This document shows positions 30,266 through 57,425 of a stretch of 64,000 nt of DNA, piece after piece. The translations under genes were made by a program, and so were the position numbers. Under the pieces are notes generated by a model. It had not been told where the DNA came from. It ran no database searches and worked only from the letters and a program-made list of their open reading frames with translations. Positions within the stretch are counted from its first letter, which is position 1. The number at the start of each line of letters is the position of its first letter. Source of the stretch: Streptomyces mirabilis (lineage in GTDB: Bacteria; Actinomycetota; Actinomycetes; Streptomycetales; Streptomycetaceae); assembly GCF_039503195.1 (NCBI RefSeq), contig NZ_JBCJKP010000001.1:8928001-8992000 (forward strand), given 5' to 3'.

Positions 30266-31251
30266 TCAAGATCGTTGATCCAGTGCCCCGGGGTGATGCA
30301 GCACCCACCCCTGCCACGCCGACTCCACCATCTCCCGGACCCCGCGCCGCGCACTCCAGTCGAGTTCCCGCGCGGCCAGGTCGGCCGAGGCGACCGCGCG
30401 CGGCGCGTCCCGGGCCGGCGCGGCTCGACGACCGGTCGCCGGGTGTCCCCGCTGACCTCGCCGATCAGCGTGAGCAGTTCACGTACCGAGACCCCTTCGC
30501 CGCGGCCGATGTTCGCCGTGAGGTCCCCCGTCGCGCCGTCGGCCAGCCGCCGGGCCGCCGCGAGGTGCGCCTCGGCGAGGTCGGCGACGTGGATGTAGTC
30601 GCGGACGCAGGTGCCGTCCGGCGTCGGGTAGTCGTCGCCGAAGATCCGCGGGGCCTCGTCGCGGGTGAGGCGGTCGAAGACCATCGGGATCACGTTGAAC
30701 ACGCCGGTGTCGGCCAGCTCGGGCGTGGCCGCACCCGCCACGTTGAAGTAGCGCAGGCACACGGTCGCGATGCCGTGGGCCCGGCCCGCCGCGCGGACCA
30801 GCCACTCCCCGGCGAGCTTCGTCTCGCCGTACGGGCTCATCGGCGCGCAGGGGGTGTCCTCCGTGATGAGGTCCTCATCCGGGTTGCCGTAGACGGCGGC
30901 GGACGAGGAGAAGACGAAGCGCTCGACGCCGGCCCCGGCGACCGCCTCCAGGAGCGTCGCGAGCCCGCCCACGTTCTCCTGGTAGTAACGCGTCGGCTGG
31001 GCCACGGACTCGCCGACCTGCTTGCGCGCGGCGAGATGCACCACACCCGTGACCGCGTGCTCCGCGAGGACCCGCTTGAGCAGGTCCCCGTCCAGCGACG
31101 AGCCCTGCACCAGAGGAATGCTCTCCGGAAGCCGGTTCGGAACCCCGGCCGAGAGGTCGTCGAGGGCGACGACGCGCTCCCCGGCCTCCGCCATCGCGCG
31201 CGCCACGTGTGCCCCGATGTATCCGGCCCCGCCTGTGATCAGCCATGTCAT
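30266..31251 (-). pseudogene. galE: UDP-glucose 4-epimerase with a single-base frameshift
   Basis: Starts at ATG 31251 (MTWLITGGAGYIGAHVARAM). NAD loop GGAGYIGAH, catalytic SSSAAVYG and YGETK (Tyr-x3-Lys) are intact. At about 30409-30411 one base is missing: the frame RRPG... continues as TRRARSPRP, while the +1-restored frame reads RRPGDAPRAVASADLAARELDW and GWVLHHP, a normal GalE end, stopping at 30266. The uncorrected frame would run on through the terminator into the next gene. Restored length is 328 aa. Supplies UDP-galactose, possibly to the surface-polymer cluster it diverges from. Confidence 0.88.
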
Positions 31252-31600: not shown

Positions 31601-33402
31601 GTGAGTTCGCTGTCGACCGCCATCCTCACCGGCCAGCCGGTCCCCGGATCGTCGCTCGAGAGCGATCTGCGGTCGCTCGGCTTCGACGTGCGGCTCGCCG
31701 GCGAAGCCGGTGACGCCGAGACACTGCTGGCCGCCGTACCGGCGGACCATCGGGTCGCCGTCGTCGACGCCCGCTTCGTGGGGCACCTGCACGCACTGCG
31801 CCTCGGCCTCACGGACCCACGGTTCGCGGCCTCCGCACTGCCCGGCGCCGTATCGGTACAGCCCGAGGCCCGCCGGGCGCTGACCCGTGCCGTGGCCCGT
31901 GAGAGCTCTGCCTCCGGCGGCCTCGCCGTCGCCACCGACAACCTCGCCGAGCGGCTCACCGCGGCCCTCGACGCGGACGGCGTCGCCGTGTTCCGCCCCG
32001 AACTCGGCACGCTCGTCGCCGCGGTCCCCGCCGACCCGCAGGAGCGCAACGAGGCCCGGCAGGCCGTGTCCGCCGTGGACGACGAGGCCGTACGCCTGCG
32101 CAGCGCCGTCAAGGCCCGCGACGGCTTCTTCACCACGTACTGCATCAGCCCGTACTCGCGCTACATCGCCCGCTGGTGCGCCCGTCGCGGCCTGACCCCG
32201 AACCAGGTCACCACCGCCTCCCTGCTCACCGCGCTGATCGCCGCGGGCTGCGCCGCCACCGGCACCCGCGCCGGATTCGTCGCGGCCGGGCTGCTGCTCC
32301 TGTTCTCCTTCGTCCTGGACTGCACGGACGGGCAACTCGCCCGCTACTCGCTCCAGTACTCGACGCTCGGCGCCTGGCTGGACGCGACCTTCGACCGCGC
32401 CAAGGAGTACGCCTACTACGCGGGCCTCGCCCTCGGAGCCGCCCGCGGGGGCGACGACGTATGGGCCCTTGCGCTCGGCGCGATGATCCTCCAGACCTGT
32501 CGGCACGTCGTGGACTTCTCCTTCAACGAGGCGAACCACGACGCCACCGCCAACACCAGCCCCACCGCCGCACTCTCGGACAAGCTCGACAGCGTCGGCT
32601 GGACGGTCTGGGTGCGCCGGATGATAGTCCTGCCCATCGGCGAACGATGGGCGATGATCGCCGTCCTCACGGCGCTGACGACCCCCCGCATCACCTTCTA
32701 CGTGCTGCTCGTCGGCTGCGCGTTCGCCGCGACGTACACCACGGCGGGCCGCGTACTGCGCTCGCTCACCCGCAAGGCCCGGCGCACGGACCGGGCGGCG
32801 CAGGCGCTGGCGGATCTCGCGGACAGCGGACCGCTCGTCGAACTGCTGGCGCGCCTCGCACGCGGCACGGTCCGTGTCGCGGCGCCCGTCAGTGCCGCCG
32901 TCGGCGGCGTCCTCGTGGTGACCTCGGCCCTGCTCTGGGGCGCGGGCTGGCAGACCGTCCTGTGCGCCGTCGGCTACGTGCTCCTGTCCGCCCTCGCCGT
33001 CGTCCGCCCCCTCAAGGGCGCCCTCGACTGGCTGGTGCCCCCCTTCTTCCGCGCCGCCGAATACCTCACCGTTCTGGTCCTGGCGGCCAAAGCCGATGTG
33101 AACGGAGTGCTACCCGCGGCTTTCGGCCTGGTGGCCGCCGTCGCCTACCATCACTACGACACGGTGTACCGCATCCGCGGCAACGCCGGAGCCCCCCGCA
33201 CTGGCTGGTGCGGGCCATCGGCGGGCACGAAGGCAGGACGCTGCTGGTCACCGTCCTGGCCGCGCTGCTCACCGCCGCACAGTTCAAGGTCGCGCTCACG
33301 GCGCTCGCCGTGGCCGTGGCGCTGCTGGTGCTCGTGGAGAGCATCCGCTTCTGGGTGTCCTCCGGGGCCCCCGCCGTACACGATGAAGGAGAACCCGCAT
33401 GA
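31601..33402 (+). pseudogene. DUF5941-type CDP-alcohol phosphotransferase with a single-base frameshift
   Basis: Restored length 600 aa. Residues 1-165 are a soluble domain of unknown role (STAILTGQPVPGSSLESDL; DHRVAVVDARFVGHLHALRLG). Then comes a membrane CDP-alcohol phosphotransferase with the full signature DCTDGQLAR, eight residues, G-x3-D-x3-D (GAWLDATFD), then further membrane helices. At the C6 run near 33191-33196 one C is missing. With seven C the frame reads GAPPHWLVRAIGGHEG and ends at 33402, overlapping the next gene by ATGA, which supports the correction. The start is uncertain: GTG 31601 has no well-spaced ribosome site, and ATG 31508 is possible. Joins a phospho-alcohol from a CDP carrier to an acceptor at the membrane. 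Confidence 0.82.
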
Positions 33403-34151
33403 TCGGCCTCGTGCTGGCGGCCGGCGCCGGACGGCGTCTGCGTCCCTACACCGACAGCCTCCCAAAGGCTCTCGTACCGGTGGGACCCGAGGGCATGGAG
33501 GACAGCATCACGGTCCTGGACCTGACCCTCGGCAACTTCGCCGAGATCGGTCTGACCGAGGTCGGGATCATCGTCGGCTACCGCAAGGAAGCCGTGTACG
33601 ACCGCAAGGACGCCCTGGAGGCCAAGTACGGCCTCAAGATCACCCTCATCGACAACGACAAGGCCGAGGAGTGGAACAACGCCTACTCCCTGTGGTGTGG
33701 CCGTGACGCCCTCAAGGACGGTGTGATCCTCGCCAACGGCGACACCGTGCACCCGGTCTCCGTCGAGAAGACGCTGCTGGCCGCCCGCGGCGACGGCAAG
33801 CGGATCATCCTCGCCCTCGACACGGTGAAGAAGCTCGCCGACGAGGAGATGAAGGTCGTCGTGGACCCCGACAAGGGCGTCCGGAAGATCACCAAGCTGA
33901 TGGAGCCCGCCGAGGCCACCGGCGAGTACATCGGCGTCACCCTCATCGAGGGCGACGCCGCGGCCGACCTGGCCGACGCCCTGAAGACGGTGTGGGAGAC
34001 GGACCCGCAGCAGTTCTACGAGCACGGCTACCAGGAGCTGGTCAACCGCGGCTTCACGATCGACGTGGCGCCGATCGGTGACGTCAAGTGGGTCGAGATC
34101 GACAACCACGACGACCTCGCCAAGGGACGGGAGATCGCGTGCCAGTACTGA
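33399..34151 (+). CDS. LicC-like sugar/alcohol-phosphate cytidylyltransferase
   Basis: 250 aa. Nucleotidyltransferase loop LAAGAGRRLRPYTDSLPKAL (signature Gly-x-Gly-x-Arg plus the catalytic Lys), then NNAYSLWCGRDAL and VILANGDTVHP with the metal-binding Asp. The NN-x-YSL pattern resembles LicC, which makes CDP-choline. Activates a phospho-alcohol as a CDP (less likely UDP or dTDP) derivative, the natural substrate of the flanking CDP-alcohol phosphotransferases. ATGA overlap with the gene before; 13-base overlap with the gene after. Confidence 0.88.
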   Translation: MIGLVLAAGAGRRLRPYTDSLPKALVPVGPEGMEDSITVLDLTLGNFAEIGLTEVGIIVGYRKEAVYDRKDALEAKYGLKITLIDNDKAEEWNNAYSLWCGRDALKDGVILANGDTVHPVSVEKTLLAARGDGKRIILALDTVKKLADEEMKVVVDPDKGVRKITKLMEPAEATGEYIGVTLIEGDAAADLADALKTVWETDPQQFYEHGYQELVNRGFTIDVAPIGDVKWVEIDNHDDLAKGREIACQY

Positions 34152-35200
34152 CAAGGCTCATCCCCTCCCCGGTCGTCGTCGACATCCGCCCGGGTGCCCT
34201 GGACGACCTGGCGAGCGTGCTCTCCGACCAGCGGATCTCGCACTCCGGCAAGCTGGCCGTCGCCGTGAGCAACGGCTCCGGCGCGAAGCTGCGCGAGCGG
34301 ATCGCCCCGGCCCTGCCCGGCGCCACCTGGTACGAGGTCGGCGGCGGCGCCCTCGACGACGCGATCCGGCTGGCCGGTGCCATCAAGGCCGGCCACTACG
34401 ACGCGGTCGTGGGCCTGGGCGGCGGCAAGATCATCGACTGTGCGAAGTTCGCCGCGGCGCGCGTCGGTCTCCCGCTGGTCGCCGTGCCCACCAACCTCGC
34501 GCACGACGGCCTGTGCTCGCCCGTCGCGACCCTCGACAACGACGCGGGCCGCGGCTCCTACGGTGTGCCGAACCCGATCGCGGTCGTCATCGACCTCGAT
34601 GTGATCCGCGAGGCACCGGCGCGCTTCGTGCGAGCCGGCATCGGCGACGCGATCTCCAACATCAACTCGATCGCGGACTGGGAACTCTCCCACCGCGTCA
34701 ACGGCGAGAAGATCGACGGCCTCGCCTCCGCGATGGCCCGTCAGGCCGGCGAGGCGGTGCTGCGGCACCCGGGCGGCATCGGGGACAACGACTTCCTCCA
34801 GGTGTTGGCCGAGGCGCTGGTCCTCACCGGCGTCGCGATGTCGATCTCGGGCGACTCACGGCCCGCCTCGGGCTCCTGCCACGAGATCAACCACGCCTTC
34901 GACCTCCTCTTCCCCAAGCGCGCGGCGAGCCACGGCGAGCAGTGCGGCCTGGGCGCGGCCTTCGCGATGTACCTGCGGGGGGCGCACGAGGAGTCGGCGT
35001 ACACGGCCGAGGTGCTGCGCCGGCACGGGCTGCCGGTACTGCCCGAGGAGATCGGGTTCACCGTGGACGAGTTCGTGCAGGTCGTGGAGTTCGCTCCGCA
35101 GACCCGGCCGGGCCGCTACACGATCCTCGAACACCTCGACCTGAAACCCAACCAGATCAAGGACATCTACTCCGACTATGCCAAGGCCATCAGTAGCTGA
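34139..35200 (+). CDS. Glycerol-1-phosphate dehydrogenase-like (Fe-ADH superfamily) enzyme
   Basis: 353 aa from GTG 34139 (GGGACGGGAG upstream). NAD-binding GLGGGKIIDCAKFAA, then VPTNLAHDGLCSPVA as in archaeal EgsA/AraM. Metal ligands are likely the Asp in GIGDAISN and the His residues in SGSCHEINHAFD and RAASHGEQCGLG. Known relatives reduce dihydroxyacetone phosphate to sn-glycerol-1-phosphate. In this operon the product would feed the cytidylyltransferase. Other polyol phosphates remain possible. Confidence 0.85.
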   Translation: MPVLTRLIPSPVVVDIRPGALDDLASVLSDQRISHSGKLAVAVSNGSGAKLRERIAPALPGATWYEVGGGALDDAIRLAGAIKAGHYDAVVGLGGGKIIDCAKFAAARVGLPLVAVPTNLAHDGLCSPVATLDNDAGRGSYGVPNPIAVVIDLDVIREAPARFVRAGIGDAISNINSIADWELSHRVNGEKIDGLASAMARQAGEAVLRHPGGIGDNDFLQVLAEALVLTGVAMSISGDSRPASGSCHEINHAFDLLFPKRAASHGEQCGLGAAFAMYLRGAHEESAYTAEVLRRHGLPVLPEEIGFTVDEFVQVVEFAPQTRPGRYTILEHLDLKPNQIKDIYSDYAKAISS

Positions 35201-35957
35201 GCTCCGCCCCGTCGTTCATCCCGCAGGGGTGAAGGACCGGCGCAGCGGTGAGCATTGGGCGGGACGCCTGTACATGCGAGAGATCTCGCTGCGCTGCGAC
35301 CGCTACCTGGTGAACACCAGGATCACGCCCAACCAGCTCACGTACCTGATGACTGTCTTCGGCGTGCTCGCCGCCCCGGCCCTGCTGGTGCCGGGGATCC
35401 CGGGCGCCGTGCTCGGCGTGCTCATGGTCCAGCTCTACCTGCTGCTCGACTGTGTCGACGGTGAGATAGCGCGCTGGAAGAAGCAGTTCTCGCTCGGCGG
35501 GGTCTACCTGGACCGGGTCGGTGCCTATCTGACCGACGCCGCGGTGCTCGTGGGCTTCGGCCTGCGCGCCGCCGATCCCTGGGGGTCCGGGCGGATCGAC
35601 TGGCTCTGGGCCTTCCTCGGCACCCTGGCGGCCCTCGGCGCGATCCTGATCAAGGCCGAGACCGACCTCGTCGGCGTCGCCCGCCACCAGGGCGGCCTGC
35701 CGCCGGTCAAGGAGTCGGCGTCCGAGCCGCGCTCGTCCGGCATGGCACTGGCCCGCAGGGCCGCCGCCGCGCTGAAGTTCCACCGGCTGGTGCTCGGCAT
35801 CGAGGCGTCCCTGCTGATCCTGGTGCTGGCCATCGTGGACTCGGTGCGCGGAGACCTGTTCTTCACCCGCCTCGGCGTCGCGGTCCTGGCCGGCATCGCC
35901 CTCCTCCAGACCGTGCTGCACCTCGTGTCCATCCTCGTCTCCAGCAGGCTGAAGTGA
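35178..35957 (+). CDS. CDP-alcohol phosphotransferase family protein, variant active site
   Basis: 259 aa with several membrane helices. The family signature is present up to the seventh residue, DCVDGEIAR, eight residues, G-x3-D (GVYLD), but the last Asp of D-x3-D is Ala (DRVGA). In known members that Asp is the proposed general base. The C-terminal half is hydrophobic. It overlaps the dehydrogenase gene by 23 bases and the glycosyltransferase gene by GTGA. It could be a second transferase with altered chemistry or a non-catalytic partner of the DUF5941 protein. Confidence 0.85.
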   Translation: MPRPSVAELRPVVHPAGVKDRRSGEHWAGRLYMREISLRCDRYLVNTRITPNQLTYLMTVFGVLAAPALLVPGIPGAVLGVLMVQLYLLLDCVDGEIARWKKQFSLGGVYLDRVGAYLTDAAVLVGFGLRAADPWGSGRIDWLWAFLGTLAALGAILIKAETDLVGVARHQGGLPPVKESASEPRSSGMALARRAAAALKFHRLVLGIEASLLILVLAIVDSVRGDLFFTRLGVAVLAGIALLQTVLHLVSILVSSRLK

Positions 35958-36838
35958 GTACGGCGATGAAGGTCGGCGCGGTCGTCATCACCATGGGCAA
36001 CCGCCCCGACGAGCTCCGAGCCCTGCTGGACTCCGTCGCCAAGCAGGACGGCGACCGGGTCGAGGTGGTCGTGGTCGGCAACGGCTCGCCCGTCCCGGAC
36101 GTCCCCGACGGCGTACGCACCGTAGAGCTGCCCGAGAACCTCGGCATTCCCGGCGGCCGCAACGTGGGCATCGAGGCGTTCGGCCCCGGTGGCACGGACG
36201 TCGACATCCTGCTCTTCCTCGACGACGACGGCCTCCTCGCCACCCACGACACCGCCGAGCTGTGCCGCCGGGCCTTCGCCGCCGACCCCGAGCTGGGCAT
36301 CATCAGCTTCCGGATCGCGGATCCCGAGACCAAGGAGACCCAGCGCCGCCACGTACCGCGGCTGCGCGCCTCCGACCCGATGCGCTCCTCGCGCGTCACC
36401 ACCTTCCTCGGTGGCGCCAACGCGGTCCGTACGAAGGTCTTCGCCGAGGTCGGCGGACTACCGGACGAGTTCTTCTACGCCCACGAGGAAACCGACCTGG
36501 CATGGCGGGCCCTCGACGCGGGCTGGATGATCGACTACCGGTCCGACATGGTCCTGTACCACCCCACGACCGCCCCTTCGCGGCACGCGGTGTACCACCG
36601 CATGGTGGCCCGCAACCGTGTCTGGCTCGCGCGCCGAAACCTTCCCGCGCCGCTCGTCCCCGTCTACCTCGGGGTCTGGATGCTCCTGACCCTGGCCCGT
36701 CGCCCCTCGGGACCAGCCCTGAAGGCGTGGTTCGGCGGTTTCAAGGAGGGCTGGACCAGTCCCTGCGGGCCCCGGCGTCCCATGAAGTGGCGTACGGTGT
36801 GGCGGCTGAGCCGCCTAGGTCGTCCTCCTGTCATCTGA
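35954..36838 (+). CDS. GT2-family glycosyltransferase
   Basis: 294 aa, GT-A fold. Nucleotide-binding AVVITMGNRPDELRALLDSV, Asp motif LLFLDDDG (D90-D92), FLGGANAVRTKVF and acceptor motif HEETDLAWR. Near the C-terminus is one hydrophobic stretch (PVYLGVWMLLTLA). It sits directly before a Wzm/Wzt-type transporter, like mycobacterial glfT1 beside rfbD/rfbE as I recall. A priming or early transferase on a lipid carrier is plausible; the sugar is not known. Confidence 0.9.
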   Translation: MSTAMKVGAVVITMGNRPDELRALLDSVAKQDGDRVEVVVVGNGSPVPDVPDGVRTVELPENLGIPGGRNVGIEAFGPGGTDVDILLFLDDDGLLATHDTAELCRRAFAADPELGIISFRIADPETKETQRRHVPRLRASDPMRSSRVTTFLGGANAVRTKVFAEVGGLPDEFFYAHEETDLAWRALDAGWMIDYRSDMVLYHPTTAPSRHAVYHRMVARNRVWLARRNLPAPLVPVYLGVWMLLTLARRPSGPALKAWFGGFKEGWTSPCGPRRPMKWRTVWRLSRLGRPPVI

Positions 36839-36960
36839 CAAGCGGCTACGCCATCTGACAAGCTCGTTCCCGGGAGCACGTTCGCCGTACTCCGGTGTCC
36901 CGTGCCCTCAGCCCCTGCCCGACCAGGCCGTGCGCATCATGAAGACGAAAGTTTCCATTT

Positions 36961-37890
36961 GTGAGTGAGACAACGCATGACGGAGCTGTCGCAGTGAGCG
37001 ACCGGCCGTCCCCCGATGACGGGCTCTCCGCGGCCGACATCGCCGCCAAGTACGGGCTCGCGGTCAGCGGCGCGCGGCCCGGACTCGTCGAGTACGTGCG
37101 TCAGCTGTGGGGGCGTCGGCACTTCATCCTCGCCTTCTCGCAGGCGAAACTCACCGCGCAGTACAGCCAGGCCAAACTCGGCCAGCTGTGGCAGGTGGCG
37201 ACGCCGCTGCTGAACGCGGCCGTGTACTACTTCATCTTCGGCGTGATCCTCAAGGCCAGCCGGGGCATGTCGCACGACACCTACATCCCGTTCCTGGTGA
37301 CCGGTGTGTTCGTCTTCACGTTCACGCAGAGCTCGATCATGGCGGGCGTCCGAGCGATCTCGGGCAACCTGGGGCTGGTGCGCGCGCTGCACTTCCCGCG
37401 CGCCTCGCTGCCCATCTCCTTCGCGCTCCAGCAGCTCCAGCAGCTGCTGTTCTCGATGATCGTGCTCTTCGTCGTGGTGATCGGTTTCGGCAGCGCGCCG
37501 GGTCTGTCCTGGCTGCTGATCGTCCCGGTGCTGGTGCTGCAGTTCCTCTTCAACACCGGCCTCGCGCTGATCGTGGCGCGCATGGGCGCCAAGACGCCGG
37601 ACCTCGCCCAGCTGATGCCGTTCATCCTGCGCACCTGGATGTACACCTCGGGCGTCATGTTCTCCATCAGCAACATGCTCGTCGGACGGCCCGAGTGGTT
37701 CATCCGCGCGCTCCAGGTGAACCCGGCCGCCATCTACATGGACCTGATGCGCTACGCCCTCATCGACGGCTACGGCGCCTCGCACCTGCCGCCCCATGTG
37801 TGGGCCATCGCCACCTTCTGGGCCGTGGTCGTCGCCGCCGGCGGGTTCGTGTACTTCTGGAAGGCGGAAGAGAGGTACGGCCGTGGCTGA
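36961..37890 (+). CDS. ABC-2 polysaccharide/teichoic acid exporter permease (Wzm/TagG type)
   Basis: 309 aa. About 45 soluble residues, then GRRHFILAFSQAKLTAQYSQAKLGQLWQ-type entry with six membrane helices and the ABC-2 pattern (PFLVTGVFVFTFTQSS, QVNPAAIYMDLMRYAL). GTG 36961 taken as start; GTG 36994 has a better spaced GGAG and is a real alternative. It overlaps the ATPase gene by 8 bases. Exports a lipid-linked glycan across the membrane. A 122-bp gap before it contains a 12-bp direct repeat (CATCTGACAAGC at 36832 and 36852). Confidence 0.92.
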   Translation: MSETTHDGAVAVSDRPSPDDGLSAADIAAKYGLAVSGARPGLVEYVRQLWGRRHFILAFSQAKLTAQYSQAKLGQLWQVATPLLNAAVYYFIFGVILKASRGMSHDTYIPFLVTGVFVFTFTQSSIMAGVRAISGNLGLVRALHFPRASLPISFALQQLQQLLFSMIVLFVVVIGFGSAPGLSWLLIVPVLVLQFLFNTGLALIVARMGAKTPDLAQLMPFILRTWMYTSGVMFSISNMLVGRPEWFIRALQVNPAAIYMDLMRYALIDGYGASHLPPHVWAIATFWAVVVAAGGFVYFWKAEERYGRG

Positions 37891-38656
37891 GCAGACATCC
37901 CACATCCCGACCGTGATCGCGGACGAGCTGCACATCGTCTACCGCGTGAACGGCGCCAAGACCGGCAAGGGCAGCGCCACCGCCGCCCTCAGCCGCATCA
38001 TCAAGCGCGGCGAGGAGCGGGGCGTACGCAAGGTGCACGCCGTCAAGGGCGTCTCCTTCACGGCCTACCGCGGCGAGGCCATCGGCCTGATCGGCTCCAA
38101 CGGATCCGGCAAGTCCACGCTCCTGCGTGCCATCGCCGGTCTGCTGCCCGCAGAGAAGGGCAAGGTCTACACCGACGGCCAGCCCTCGCTGCTCGGCGTG
38201 AACGCGGCCCTGATGAACGACCTCACGGGCGAACGCAACGTCATATTGGGCGGGCTCGCGATGGGCATGTCCCGCGAGCAGATCAGGGAGCGCTACCAGG
38301 AGATCGTCGACTTCTCGGGGATCAACGAGAAGGGCGACTTCATCACCCTGCCGATGCGCACCTACTCCTCCGGCATGGCGGCGCGGCTGCGCTTCTCCAT
38401 CGCGGCCGCCAAGGACCACGACGTCCTCATGATCGACGAGGCCCTCGCCACCGGAGACCGCTCCTTCCAGAAGCGCTCCGAGGAGCGGATCCGGGAGCTG
38501 CGCAAGAGCGCGGGCACGGTGTTTCTGGTCAGCCACAACAACAAGTCGATCCGGGACACCTGCGACCGCGTGCTCTGGCTGGAGCGCGGTGAGCTGCGGA
38601 TGGACGGTCCGACCGAAGAGGTCCTCAAGGAGTACGAGAAGTTCACGGGCAAGTAG
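37883..38656 (+). CDS. ABC exporter ATP-binding protein (Wzt/TagH type)
   Basis: 257 aa. Walker A GLIGSNGSGKSTLL, signature RTYSSGMAARLRFS, Walker B DVLMIDEALATGD and H-loop FLVSHNN. The DEALATGD form with an N-terminal extension and YSSGM signature is specific for glycan exporters. It lacks the C-terminal carbohydrate-binding domain of many Wzt proteins, so substrate choice probably does not depend on a terminal sugar cap. Last gene of the cluster, followed at once by a 16-bp stem terminator. Confidence 0.94.
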   Translation: MAEQTSHIPTVIADELHIVYRVNGAKTGKGSATAALSRIIKRGEERGVRKVHAVKGVSFTAYRGEAIGLIGSNGSGKSTLLRAIAGLLPAEKGKVYTDGQPSLLGVNAALMNDLTGERNVILGGLAMGMSREQIRERYQEIVDFSGINEKGDFITLPMRTYSSGMAARLRFSIAAAKDHDVLMIDEALATGDRSFQKRSEERIRELRKSAGTVFLVSHNNKSIRDTCDRVLWLERGELRMDGPTEEVLKEYEKFTGK

Positions 38657-38952: not shown

Positions 38953-39018
38953 ATGGCTACGGAAACTCTCCAGCTCCGCGACGCGTGTGCCGTCCCCGCG
39001 CCGGGCGGCGAGCGGTGA
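38953..39018 (+). CDS. 21-codon leader peptide coupled to hpnC
   Basis: Product MATETLQLRDACAVPAPGGER, 21 aa, with GGGAG 11 bases upstream of the ATG. Its TGA overlaps the hpnC GTG as GTGA. hpnC itself has only a weak ribosome site, so ribosomes ending the leader may restart on hpnC. No run of rare or identical codons that would point to amino-acid attenuation. Whether it is translated is inference. Confidence 0.5.
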   Translation: MATETLQLRDACAVPAPGGER

Positions 39019-39917
39019 CCCAAGCCGGTACGGCGCGCACTGGTGAGACAGAGCGCGGAACGCTCGACAAGGCCGCGGGCGAGAACTTCCCCGTGGCACC
39101 CTTTTTCCTGCCCCAGGCCTGGCGCGACGACCTGATGGCCGTCTACGGCTTCGCCCGCCTCGTCGACGACATCGGCGACGGCGATCTCGCCCCGGGCGGC
39201 GGGGACGCCAGGCTGCTCGGCGTGTCGCCCGACGAGGCCGAGGACCGTCTCGTACTCCTGGACGCCTTCGAGGCCGACCTGCACCGCGTGTTCGACTCGA
39301 CGCCGCACCACCCGCTGCTGCGCCGCCTGCAGCCCACGGTCCGCCGCACGGACCTCACCCCCGAACCCTTCCTCGGGCTGATCGCGGCCAACCGCCAGGA
39401 CCAGCTGATCAAGCGCTACGAGACCTATGACGACCTCGTGGCCTACTGCGAGCTGTCCGCCAATCCTGTCGGCCGCCTGGTGCTGTCCGTCACCGGCACC
39501 TCCACGCCCGAGCGGATCCGCCGCTCGGATTCGGTGTGCACGGCGCTGCAGATCGTCGAGCACCTCCAGGACGTCGCCGAGGACCTCAGCCGCGACCGCA
39601 TCTACCTGCCGGCCGAGGACATGAAGCGCTTCCATGTCCAGGAGGCGGATCTCGCCACGGCCACAGCGGGCGCATCGGTGCGCGCGCTGGTTGCATACGA
39701 AGCAGAACGCGCGCTCCACCTCCTGAATGAAGGCACCCCCCTCGTGGGTAGCGTCCACGGCAGGTTGAAGCTGCTGCTCGCGGGGTTCGTGGCAGGGGGA
39801 AGGGCGGCGATCCGCGCGATCGCCGCCGCCGAATACGACGTACTTCCCGGCCCGCCCAAGCCCGGCAAGCTCCAGTTGCTGCGCGAGGTGGGAGTGACTC
39901 TGCGAGGAGAGGGGTGA
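39015..39917 (+). CDS. hpnC: HpnC: hydroxysqualene synthase
   Basis: 300 aa, squalene/phytoene synthase fold. First Asp motif FARLVDDIGDGD and second EHLQDVAEDLSRDRIYLP. In the HpnCDE route HpnC turns presqualene diphosphate into hydroxysqualene. GTG start overlaps the leader stop; its own stop overlaps hpnD (GTGA). First biosynthetic gene of the hopanoid operon. Confidence 0.94.
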   Translation: MTQAGTARTGETERGTLDKAAGENFPVAPFFLPQAWRDDLMAVYGFARLVDDIGDGDLAPGGGDARLLGVSPDEAEDRLVLLDAFEADLHRVFDSTPHHPLLRRLQPTVRRTDLTPEPFLGLIAANRQDQLIKRYETYDDLVAYCELSANPVGRLVLSVTGTSTPERIRRSDSVCTALQIVEHLQDVAEDLSRDRIYLPAEDMKRFHVQEADLATATAGASVRALVAYEAERALHLLNEGTPLVGSVHGRLKLLLAGFVAGGRAAIRAIAAAEYDVLPGPPKPGKLQLLREVGVTLRGEG

Positions 39918-40864
39918 TCCGGACCGTGGAGTCGGAACAACACGTGTCCGCACCGGTACTCGCCGCTTACAGCTACTGCGAGGCAGTGACCGGTCAGCAG
40001 GCTCGTAATTTCGCCTATGGCATCAGACTTCTGCCGACGCCCAAGCGTCGTGCGATGTCGGCGCTCTACGCGTTCTCACGGCGTGTCGACGACATCGGCG
40101 ACGGCGCGCTGGCAACGGATGTGAAGGCGGCGCGGCTCGAGGACACCCGGGCTCTGCTCGCCCGGATCCGCGAGGGCCGGGTCGACGAGGACGACACCGA
40201 CCCGGTCGCGGTCGCCCTCAGCCACACCGCCGCGTATTTCCCGGTGCCGCTGGGCGGCCTCGACGAACTCATCGACGGCGTCCTGATGGACGTACGCGGT
40301 GAGACGTACGAGACCTGGGACGACCTGAAGGTGTACTGCCGGTGCGTGGCCGGGGCGATCGGGCGGCTCTCGCTCGGCGTGTTCGGTACGGAACCGGGGG
40401 CGCGCGGCGCCGAGCGCGCGCCGGAGTATGCGGACACGCTCGGGCTCGCGCTCCAGCTCACCAACATCCTTAGGGACGTACGGGAGGACGCCGCGGGCGG
40501 GCGTACCTATCTGCCCGCCGACGACCTCGCGAAGTTCGGCTGCTCGGCCGGATTCAACGGCCCGACCCCGCCCGAGGGCTCCGACTTCGCGGGCCTCGTC
40601 CACTTCGAAGTGCGACGGGCCCGCACCCTTTTCGCCGAGGGCTACCGGCTGCTGCCCATGCTCGACCGGCGCAGCGGCGCCTGTGTCGCGGCCATGGCCG
40701 GCATCTACCGGCGGCTTCTCGACCGCATCGAGCGCGAGCCGGAGGCCGTGCTGCGCGGCCGCGTCTCGCTGCCGGGGCGCGAGAAGGCGTACGTCGCCGT
40801 GCGCGGCCTCTCCGGTCTGGACGCCCGGCATGTCTCCCGGCGTACCGTCAGGAGGCGTACCTGA
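39914..40864 (+). CDS. hpnD: HpnD: presqualene diphosphate synthase
   Basis: 316 aa. SYCEAVTGQQARNFAYGIRLLP start, YAFSRRVDDIGDG and NILRDVREDAAGGRTYLP Asp motifs. Joins two farnesyl diphosphates head to head into presqualene diphosphate. Start GTG overlaps hpnC. The last codons contain a perfect AGGAGG (40850-40855) serving the small gene that starts on the hpnD stop codon. Confidence 0.95.
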   Translation: MIRTVESEQHVSAPVLAAYSYCEAVTGQQARNFAYGIRLLPTPKRRAMSALYAFSRRVDDIGDGALATDVKAARLEDTRALLARIREGRVDEDDTDPVAVALSHTAAYFPVPLGGLDELIDGVLMDVRGETYETWDDLKVYCRCVAGAIGRLSLGVFGTEPGARGAERAPEYADTLGLALQLTNILRDVREDAAGGRTYLPADDLAKFGCSAGFNGPTPPEGSDFAGLVHFEVRRARTLFAEGYRLLPMLDRRSGACVAAMAGIYRRLLDRIEREPEAVLRGRVSLPGREKAYVAVRGLSGLDARHVSRRTVRRRT

Positions 40865-56280: not shown

Positions 56281-56437
56281 GTATCCGCACACCCACCGGT
56301 AACCGGCAGGAGCGGGGGACCCACAGGTACCACGCCTGTTCCGGTCTCCGGAACGGCTAGGGGTATAGCCGCGCAGCCGCGTGGCCGGGCATCTCCAGCC
56401 CGCACCCGACAGCTCACCTCGCAGGCGCCGGAGAGGA
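56281..56437 (+). promoter_or_regulatory. ydaO-yuaA (cyclic di-AMP) riboswitch
   Basis: The conserved blocks appear in order: GGAGCGGGGGACCCA at 56309-56323, GGGGTATAGCC at 56370-56380, a GCCGGGCATC segment, and CCGACAGCTCACCTCGCAGGCG-like sequence at 56406-56427. The ribosome site of the M23 gene follows directly. These match the class as I know it from actinobacterial rpfA and cell-wall hydrolase genes, where c-di-AMP lowers expression. End points are approximate. Confidence 0.88.
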
Positions 56438-56444
56438 ATTCGTC

Positions 56445-57425
56445 ATGCCTGCGAAGGGTAAGCACCGCCGACCCAAGTCCCAGCGTTTCTCCCGCTCGAT
56501 CGCCGTGGCCGGAACCGGTGGCGCCGCGCTCGCGCTGCCGCTGATGGGGGCCGCCGGCGCCCATGCCATGACGCCTACGGCCGCGGTTTCGTCCACTCCG
56601 GAAAAGGCCGCGACGATTTCCTCCGCGACGGTTCCTCAAAAGTCCGCGACGGTTTCGGAAAAGTCCGCGACAACCTCCACGGCCTCGGTGAAGACCTATT
56701 CGGTGAAGGTCGGCGACTGGCTCGCCAAGATCGCCGAGCGGCAGCATCTCAGCGGCGGCTGGCAGAAGCTCTACTCCGACAACCGCCAGGCCATCGGCAG
56801 TGACCCCTCGCTGATCCACCCCGGCCTGAAGCTCACGATCGGCGAGAGGGCCGTGTCGACCGACGACGCCAAGCCGTCGACCAAGTCGTTCACGCAGTCG
56901 TCCGCCACGACGTCCACGCGATCGTCGGCGCGGTCGGCCACCGGGTCGTCCGGCGCGGCGGACGCGACCAAGGCCCAGGCCGCCGCACCCCGGGCCACCG
57001 GCGCCGCCACCAACACCGGTTACACCCTGCCGGTAGAGGGCGCCACCATCGGCACCGGCTACAAGGTCGCCGGCAGCATGTGGTCCAGCGGTTACCACAC
57101 CGGTGTGGACTTCGTGGTCCCGACCGGCACCACCGTCAAGGCCATCGCCGCCGGCACCGTCGTATCGGCCGGCTGGGGCGGTGCGTACGGCAACCAGGTC
57201 GTCGTCCAGCACGCCGACGGCCGGTACTCGCAGTACGCCCACCTGTCCGCCCTGTCCGTCTCGACCGGCCAGACCGTGACCGAGAGCCAGCAGATCGGCC
57301 TCTCCGGCGCGACCGGCAACGTCACCGGTCCGCACCTGCACTTCGAGATCCGCACCACCCCGAACTACGGCTCGGACGTGGACCCGGTCGCGTACCTGCG
57401 CGCGCACGGTGTCGCCGTCGGCTGA
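56445..57425 (+). CDS. Secreted LysM / M23 peptidoglycan endopeptidase
   Basis: 326 aa. Export signal at 1-41 (basic KGKHRRPKSQRFSRS, hydrophobic core, cleavage near AHAM). A Ser/Thr/Ala linker with near repeats (KSATV, EKSAT), LysM domain at about 84-133 (YSVKVGDWLAKIAE), second low-complexity linker, then M23 domain with H218-x3-D222 and H297-L-H299. Cuts peptidoglycan cross-links during growth or spore germination. Preceded by a c-di-AMP riboswitch and followed by a strong hairpin. Confidence 0.95.
   Translation: MPAKGKHRRPKSQRFSRSIAVAGTGGAALALPLMGAAGAHAMTPTAAVSSTPEKAATISSATVPQKSATVSEKSATTSTASVKTYSVKVGDWLAKIAERQHLSGGWQKLYSDNRQAIGSDPSLIHPGLKLTIGERAVSTDDAKPSTKSFTQSSATTSTRSSARSATGSSGAADATKAQAAAPRATGAATNTGYTLPVEGATIGTGYKVAGSMWSSGYHTGVDFVVPTGTTVKAIAAGTVVSAGWGGAYGNQVVVQHADGRYSQYAHLSALSVSTGQTVTESQQIGLSGATGNVTGPHLHFEIRTTPNYGSDVDPVAYLRAHGVAVG

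Follow-up and report, generated by a model that had tools for sequence, protein, structure and literature searches.

Results

A Conserved Operon Predicted to Make a Glycerol-Phosphate Polymer

Seven co-directional genes of Streptomyces mirabilis, here called A to G, form an operon that is real and widely conserved, and we read it, with a probability of about 0.58, as a teichoic-acid-type glycopolymer module that both produces and consumes CDP-glycerol, with sn-glycerol-1-phosphate (G1P or Gro1P) as its precursor. The genes occupy positions 31601-38656 on the plus strand of the window, a stretch of 64,000 nucleotides (assembly GCF_039503195.1, contig NZ_JBCJKP010000001.1, positions 8,928,001 to 8,992,000) from a genome of 11.1 Mb in two contigs, and were assigned from their translations and Pfam/NCBIfam families. 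We infer the substrates, chirality, acceptor and product of the module from sequence. The set is conserved in Streptomyces and many related soil bacteria, where its probable role is to produce, in activated form, the kind of glycerol phosphate normally associated with archaea and to incorporate it into a surface polymer that is exported.

In the proposed pathway, C would reduce dihydroxyacetone phosphate to G1P, B would use CTP to convert G1P to CDP-1-glycerol, and A would move glycerol phosphate from CDP-1-glycerol onto a lipid hydroxyl, comparable to what choline phosphotransferases do with CDP-choline. D may perform a second, chemically altered transfer or act as a partner subunit, E would attach a sugar, and F and G, an exporter of the TagGH type, would export the lipid-linked product. 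TagF polymerases with genes at other sites of the genome would probably draw on this CDP-glycerol as well, the operon taking over the role of TagD. An earlier reading of the DNA without database searches (the sequence-only reading) had outlined a route in which a polyol phosphate is made, activated with CTP, attached to a lipid or glycan, extended with sugar and exported. This outline is supported by our results and can be narrowed further, most likely to G1P, CDP-glycerol and a teichoic acid.

The same reading had described seven tightly overlapping genes. Indeed, five of the six junctions overlap (A/B, B/C, C/D, D/E and F/G), and 122 bases separate E from F. Family searches agreed with its assignment of a DUF5941 CDP-alcohol transferase, a second CDP-alcohol transferase, a GT2 enzyme and an ABC exporter, and the galE gene that it saw diverging from the operon lies on the minus strand. 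It had also proposed to look for synteny across Streptomyces: the order A-B-C-D-E-F-G plus the first two hopanoid genes is kept in 11/11 other same-genus genomes and is therefore more than chance. In 10 of these 11 genomes, galE is found upstream (the exception is locus L049).

To follow the cluster further, named loci were scanned with B. The scan confirmed 582 loci, which were ordered by their similarity to a sequence from another genus, and all locus counts given here for neighbor order and motif states refer to the best 80 of them, which include Streptomycetaceae, Micromonosporaceae, Streptosporangiaceae, Thermomonosporaceae, Nitriliruptorales and others. C is located directly behind B in 79 of the 80 loci, and D and E are downstream in 49. 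F follows in at least 17, G in at least 16 and the first hopanoid gene in at least 15; F and G were scored only if directly downstream, and these counts are lower bounds because some loci end too early and four (L088, L091, L111 and L144) carry F- and G-like genes elsewhere. Several loci of distant actinobacteria retain A-B-C-D-E; in some of them the exporter genes come later, and GT4, sulfotransferase and methyltransferase genes have joined such clusters. A simpler version of the module is seen in L089 and other Micromonosporaceae, where the gene behind B and C encodes a CDP-alcohol transferase of a third type, its motif complete, and neither A nor D is nearby. DUF5941 was detected above its cut-off in 19 of the 396 genomes of a phylum sample and in 88 of 121 family genomes.

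Within the stretches examined, hopanoid genes adjoin the cluster in Streptomycetaceae only, and we therefore regard this adjacency as a lineage arrangement. A hopanoid-linked pathway was considered as the primary function and set aside for the same reason.

B and C Are Predicted to Supply the Activated Alcohol

B had been taken for a LicC-like cytidylyltransferase, and the relationship holds: LicC (1jyk) is its top PDB match (E 2e-21), followed by the phosphonate cytidylyltransferase PntC (6pd1). In Pfam, B exceeds the cut-off for NTP_transferase, with PF00483 and PF12804 as the only matches. It is not of the TagD type, as there was no match to PF01467 and none to TIGR01518 at E 0.001. Since LicC is the best solved relative, a cytidylyltransferase is favored over a dTTP/sugar-1-phosphate enzyme. 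C was confirmed as G1P dehydrogenase-like. It aligns with solved G1P dehydrogenases, which together with 3ce9 are its leading solved relatives, and keeps their D/H/H residues, which we take to be metal ligands.

The B-C pair suggests that a phospho-alcohol is made by reduction and then activated by CTP. Conversion of dihydroxyacetone phosphate via G1P to CDP-1-glycerol would be the parsimonious reading; we only infer the chirality, since stereospecificity can be loose in such enzymes.

A second copy of C (72% identical) is present in the same-genus genome G334 near obg, at most 20 kb from two TagF genes. At this obg-linked locus, an NTP_transferase gene (L181:8876-9784) lies directly behind a TagF gene. 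Genome G121 has a LicC-like homologue with lower similarity to B (116 bits) next to a gene of the TagF type (C1:765369-767252).

Two CDP-Alcohol Phosphotransferases with Different Motifs

Among the named loci, the sequences of A and D are closest to Streptomyces proteins, and both are nearest to CDP-alcohol transferases of the inositol-phosphate type. The motif DxxDGxxARx8GxxxDxxxD of CDP-alcohol phosphotransferases usually ends in a fourth Asp, taken to be the catalytic base. In A, this Asp is present in 38/38 rows that matched the pattern (L091, L133 and L137 did not) and in 17/17 members of a second sequence set. D has the CDP-alcohol phosphotransferase fold and carries the fourth Asp in 0/49 rows (36 His, 13 Ala; one row, L135, is without the pattern) and in 0/18 of the second set. 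All 13 D rows with Ala have A upstream, in a sampling that is clade-bound. The genome encodes a paralogue of D (L038:10411-11172; G000:C1, about 5.1154 Mb) that is 53% identical, has Ala at the fourth position and lies near TraG-like genes; no A, B or C match was found in the 20 kb around it.

Given the frame break in the window copy of A, the intact orthologue from L044 was modeled. Its CDP-alcohol domain together with DUF5941 matches the membrane fold of choline/ethanolamine phosphotransferases, including their extra C-terminal helices. The frame shift in A is located at about 33190-33200, inside a run of C, and comparison of the frames with relatives placed a second break near 30.4 kb in galE. 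Both are probably assembly errors, because DUF5941 matches as a single stretch in one open frame (597-639 amino acids) in 11/11 other same-genus genomes, the break in A falls in a C run and the neighboring galE, itself conserved, is broken as well. On these grounds we rejected the break in A as genuine biology. Split or partial DUF5941 matches do occur in a few other family genomes (e.g., G418).

Association with TagF and the Exporter

Four loci link the cluster to CDP-glycerol. In L144, the sole one of the 80 loci without C behind B, a PF04464 CDP-glycerol glycerophosphotransferase (TagF-like) takes this place (30.4 bits). In L036 (genome G108), a PF04464 gene overlaps the end of B in the place of C (24.5 bits), and a stronger second match (85.1 bits) lies a few kilobases on in the same contig. 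L033 has a strong TagF-like gene (408 bits) inside the cluster on the opposite strand. In Streptosporangium (L097), a weak TagF-like gene beside A adjoins an IspD-SDR fusion, presumably a CDP-ribitol synthase.

The S. mirabilis genome itself has six PF04464 genes. No TagD was found in it, and a profile search gave no TIGR01518 candidate. Its two PF01467 proteins are, judging by gene order, presumably NadD and CoaD, and it has one strong IspD. Among the 396 phylum genomes, in each of which the searches scored a few top candidates, 19 have B, 33 have TagF (E up to 1e-20) and 16 have both; B-like matches of lower score (107-212 bits), found in 18 further genomes, were excluded. The association of B with TagF holds by genus (5/6 vs. 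13/230, p 8e-6) and also when the own genus is set aside (4/7 vs. 17/377, p 2e-4). TagD-like proteins (>=97 bits) occur in 16/396 genomes, eight of them over the curated cut-off, together with B in 0/16 and with TagF in 6/16.

CDP-ribitol was also considered as the supplied donor and rejected, as a second IspD-like protein above 100 bits was detected in just 6 of 12 same-genus genomes (G023, G107, G128, G182, G193 and G246). In the other six, TIGR01518 matches reach 59-65 bits (G171, G352 and G369) or 37 bits (G334) against a cut-off of 165, and the own genome and G161 have none.

Paralogues of F and G (66% and 76% identical, respectively) occur in the own genome close to one of its TagF genes (L169), which would tie F and G to teichoic-acid export.

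Neighboring Features

The coordinates are collected in Table 1; for A, C and G, we chose the start among in-frame GTG codons, and NCBIfam matches under cut-off were not used for naming. The hopanoid genes that abut the operon downstream also include a polyprenyl synthetase, squalene-hopene cyclase and GcpE. Further on, at 56284-56440 of the window, a c-di-AMP (ydaO/yuaA) riboswitch lies just 5' of the open reading frame listed at 56445.

Table 1. Genes of the operon and its flanks, in window coordinates.
Feature	Position	Strand	Basis
galE-like sugar-nucleotide epimerase, divergent	about 30266-31251	-	Pfam Epimerase E 2e-59; frames compared with relatives
A: degenerate cytidylyltransferase-like N-domain, CDP-alcohol phosphotransferase domain (complete motif), C-terminal DUF5941	31601-33402	+	families, motif, L044 model
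B: LicC-like cytidylyltransferase, proposed CTP:sn-glycerol-1-phosphate cytidylyltransferase	33399-34151	+	
C: G1P dehydrogenase-like, iron-alcohol-dehydrogenase family	34139-35200	+	
D: second CDP-alcohol phosphotransferase, fourth motif Asp replaced by Ala	35178-35957	+	
E: GT2 glycosyltransferase	35954-36838	+	
F: ABC-2 permease, Wzm/TagG type	36961-37890	+	
G: ABC ATPase, Wzt/TagH type	37883-38656	+	
Two squalene/phytoene synthase-like proteins (hopanoid genes), outside the proposed pathway	38985-40864	+	

Discussion

Several observations weigh against a module based on G1P. Adjacency of B and C leaves the chirality unfixed, and no C was found within the examined stretch of L036 or L144. 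Some glycerol-phosphate cytidylyltransferases, relatives of the enzyme proposed here, accept both enantiomers (PMC8262930). The same points would fit an operon of ordinary chirality, in which B makes CDP-3-glycerol from sn-glycerol-3-phosphate for a normal wall teichoic acid and the product of C is used elsewhere; TagF-like polymerases that work with CDP-3-glycerol are known. We nevertheless consider this unlikely, since the position of C behind B in nearly all loci is hard to explain unless the product of C is the substrate of B.

The remaining counterpoints concern individual genes and thresholds. The best profile match of C, 3ce9 (E 2e-62), is labelled a glycerol dehydrogenase, and C scores 240.9 bits against a cut-off of 413 for the NCBIfam G1P dehydrogenase equivalog (PRK00843). 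TagH is the best NCBIfam family of G, at 184.2 bits against an equivalog cut-off of 320. For A, choline phosphotransferases rank weakly in Foldseek (E 0.05 and 0.13), and the comparison of DUF5941 used the model together with the CDP-alcohol domain, not DUF5941 alone; moreover, A is upstream of B in only 41 of the 80 loci. The G334 stretch around the second C copy has no B homologue. With regard to TagF, the Streptomyces operon itself has none, three of the four PF04464 neighbors score barely above the 22.1-bit cut-off, and B occurs without TagF in G086, G317 and G338. Of the 33 TagF genomes, 11 are without B and also without a TagD-like protein at >=97 bits, so other sources exist. Among TagF genomes, TagD-like proteins are found in 0/16 with B and 6/17 without (p 0.018), 12 of the 16 belonging to one genus; this is no more than a hint that B and TagD exclude each other. 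The limits for B (>=393 bits) and for TagD-like proteins were set by us at gaps in the score lists; looser cut-offs return B-like matches in 37 genomes (E <=1e-30) and TagD-like matches in 48 (E <=1e-10).

The operon genes include no polymerase family, and the predicted structure of A resembles choline phosphotransferases. It could therefore be argued that, instead of a polymer, the module yields a phosphoglycolipid or a modified membrane lipid: A would make a phosphatidylglycerol-like lipid, E would glycosylate it and F/G would flip it, in Streptomycetaceae possibly on a hopanoid, as the hopanoid genes adjacent in all same-genus genomes and in some named loci might indicate. However, within the stretches examined this adjacency was found only in Streptomycetaceae, PF04464, extra glycosyltransferase, sulfotransferase and methyltransferase genes join the cluster in other lineages, and F/G are close paralogues of the transporter near the own TagF gene, and we judge the lipid to be quite improbable. 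It is most doubtful that B activates another phospho-alcohol (inositol phosphate, a phosphonate alcohol or another polyol phosphate) with C as a divergent reductase for it: the inositol-phosphate-type relatives of A and D, PntC as the second relative of B and the label of 3ce9 would agree with this, but the other leading relatives of C are G1P dehydrogenases and PF04464 proteins occupy the place of C behind B.

The polymer module based on G1P can be extended to a more far-reaching proposal, which we offer tentatively and hold to be rather less probable than the module itself. Streptomyces and many other actinobacteria might use CDP-1-glycerol to build mirror-image (G1P) teichoic acids, reaching the chirality of lipoteichoic acid (LTA) by a nucleotide route without LtaS, with A and D, the latter with its catalytic base altered or absent, founding the lipid-linked chain. 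LtaS, for which no search was made here, is reported to be absent from Streptomyces, and an alternative LTA pathway was suggested to overlap with wall teichoic acid synthesis (PMC3196553). There and in a second paper, actinobacterial LTA made without LtaS is ascribed to an unknown alternative pathway (PMC3196553, PMC3089915). In B. subtilis, the wall and lipoteichoic glycerol polymers are reported to be enantiomers, the former being degraded completely by a stereospecific GlpQ and the latter resisting it (PMC7086022).

The sequence-only reading had called the cluster undescribed. This stands as far as a product is concerned, as no publication assigning one was found in a literature search that had most subscription journals beyond its reach; a search with S. 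coelicolor locus tags of the region returned only a causal network inference paper. The synteny is already in print: the accessible part of one article notes a CDP-alcohol transferase, GT2, tagG, tagH, araM and crtB as teichoic-acid-associated, without giving product or mechanism there (PMC13118837).

The cluster offers concrete candidate enzymes for LtaS-independent glycerol-phosphate LTA and would supply a missing piece of teichoic acid synthesis. A 2021 paper called CDP-1-glycerol likely absent from bacteria and described a Gro1P-preferring activity of A. fulgidus as unidentified (PMC8262930). Should CDP-1-glycerol indeed be made by B and C, this supposedly missing metabolite would turn out to be a widespread precursor within a large group of bacteria, and the two enzymes would suggest candidates for the archaeal activity and provide an enantiopure donor for glycan synthesis. 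DUF5941, so far a domain without an assigned function, would correspond to the extra membrane helices that choline phosphotransferases carry.

Each part of the operon has a known relative from which it also differs. A shares with IPCT-DIPPS (4mnd) and AF2299 (4o6m) the order of an NTP-transferase-like N-domain followed by a CDP-alcohol domain, but its N-domain is without the LAAGxGxR stretch of B, it adds DUF5941, and B is a separate gene. The CDP-alcohol domain and DUF5941 of A align across most of the length of the eukaryotic CHPT1 and CEPT1, at 11-12% identity and in a bacterial protein. B is a sequence relative of LicC and PntC, with G1P as the proposed substrate instead. With archaeal EgsA and Bacillus AraM, C has in common the glycine-rich dinucleotide site, D/H/H, SRPxSG...H and R-[YW]-TIL, whereas it stays under the equivalog cut-off and neighbors genes for a surface polymer, not for ether lipids. 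Archaeal glycerophosphoinositol is a solute and not an exported surface product. Its synthesis uses CDP-1-glycerol, the donor proposed here (PMC8262930). With the TagD/TagF/TagGH pathway of B. subtilis, the system would share CDP-glycerol as donor, along with TagF-type genes in the genome and a TagGH-type exporter. In contrast to that pathway, no TagD was found in the own genome, a LicC-like cytidylyltransferase is paired with a G1P dehydrogenase-like enzyme, two CDP-alcohol phosphotransferases are the proposed primers, and the predicted chirality is the opposite one.

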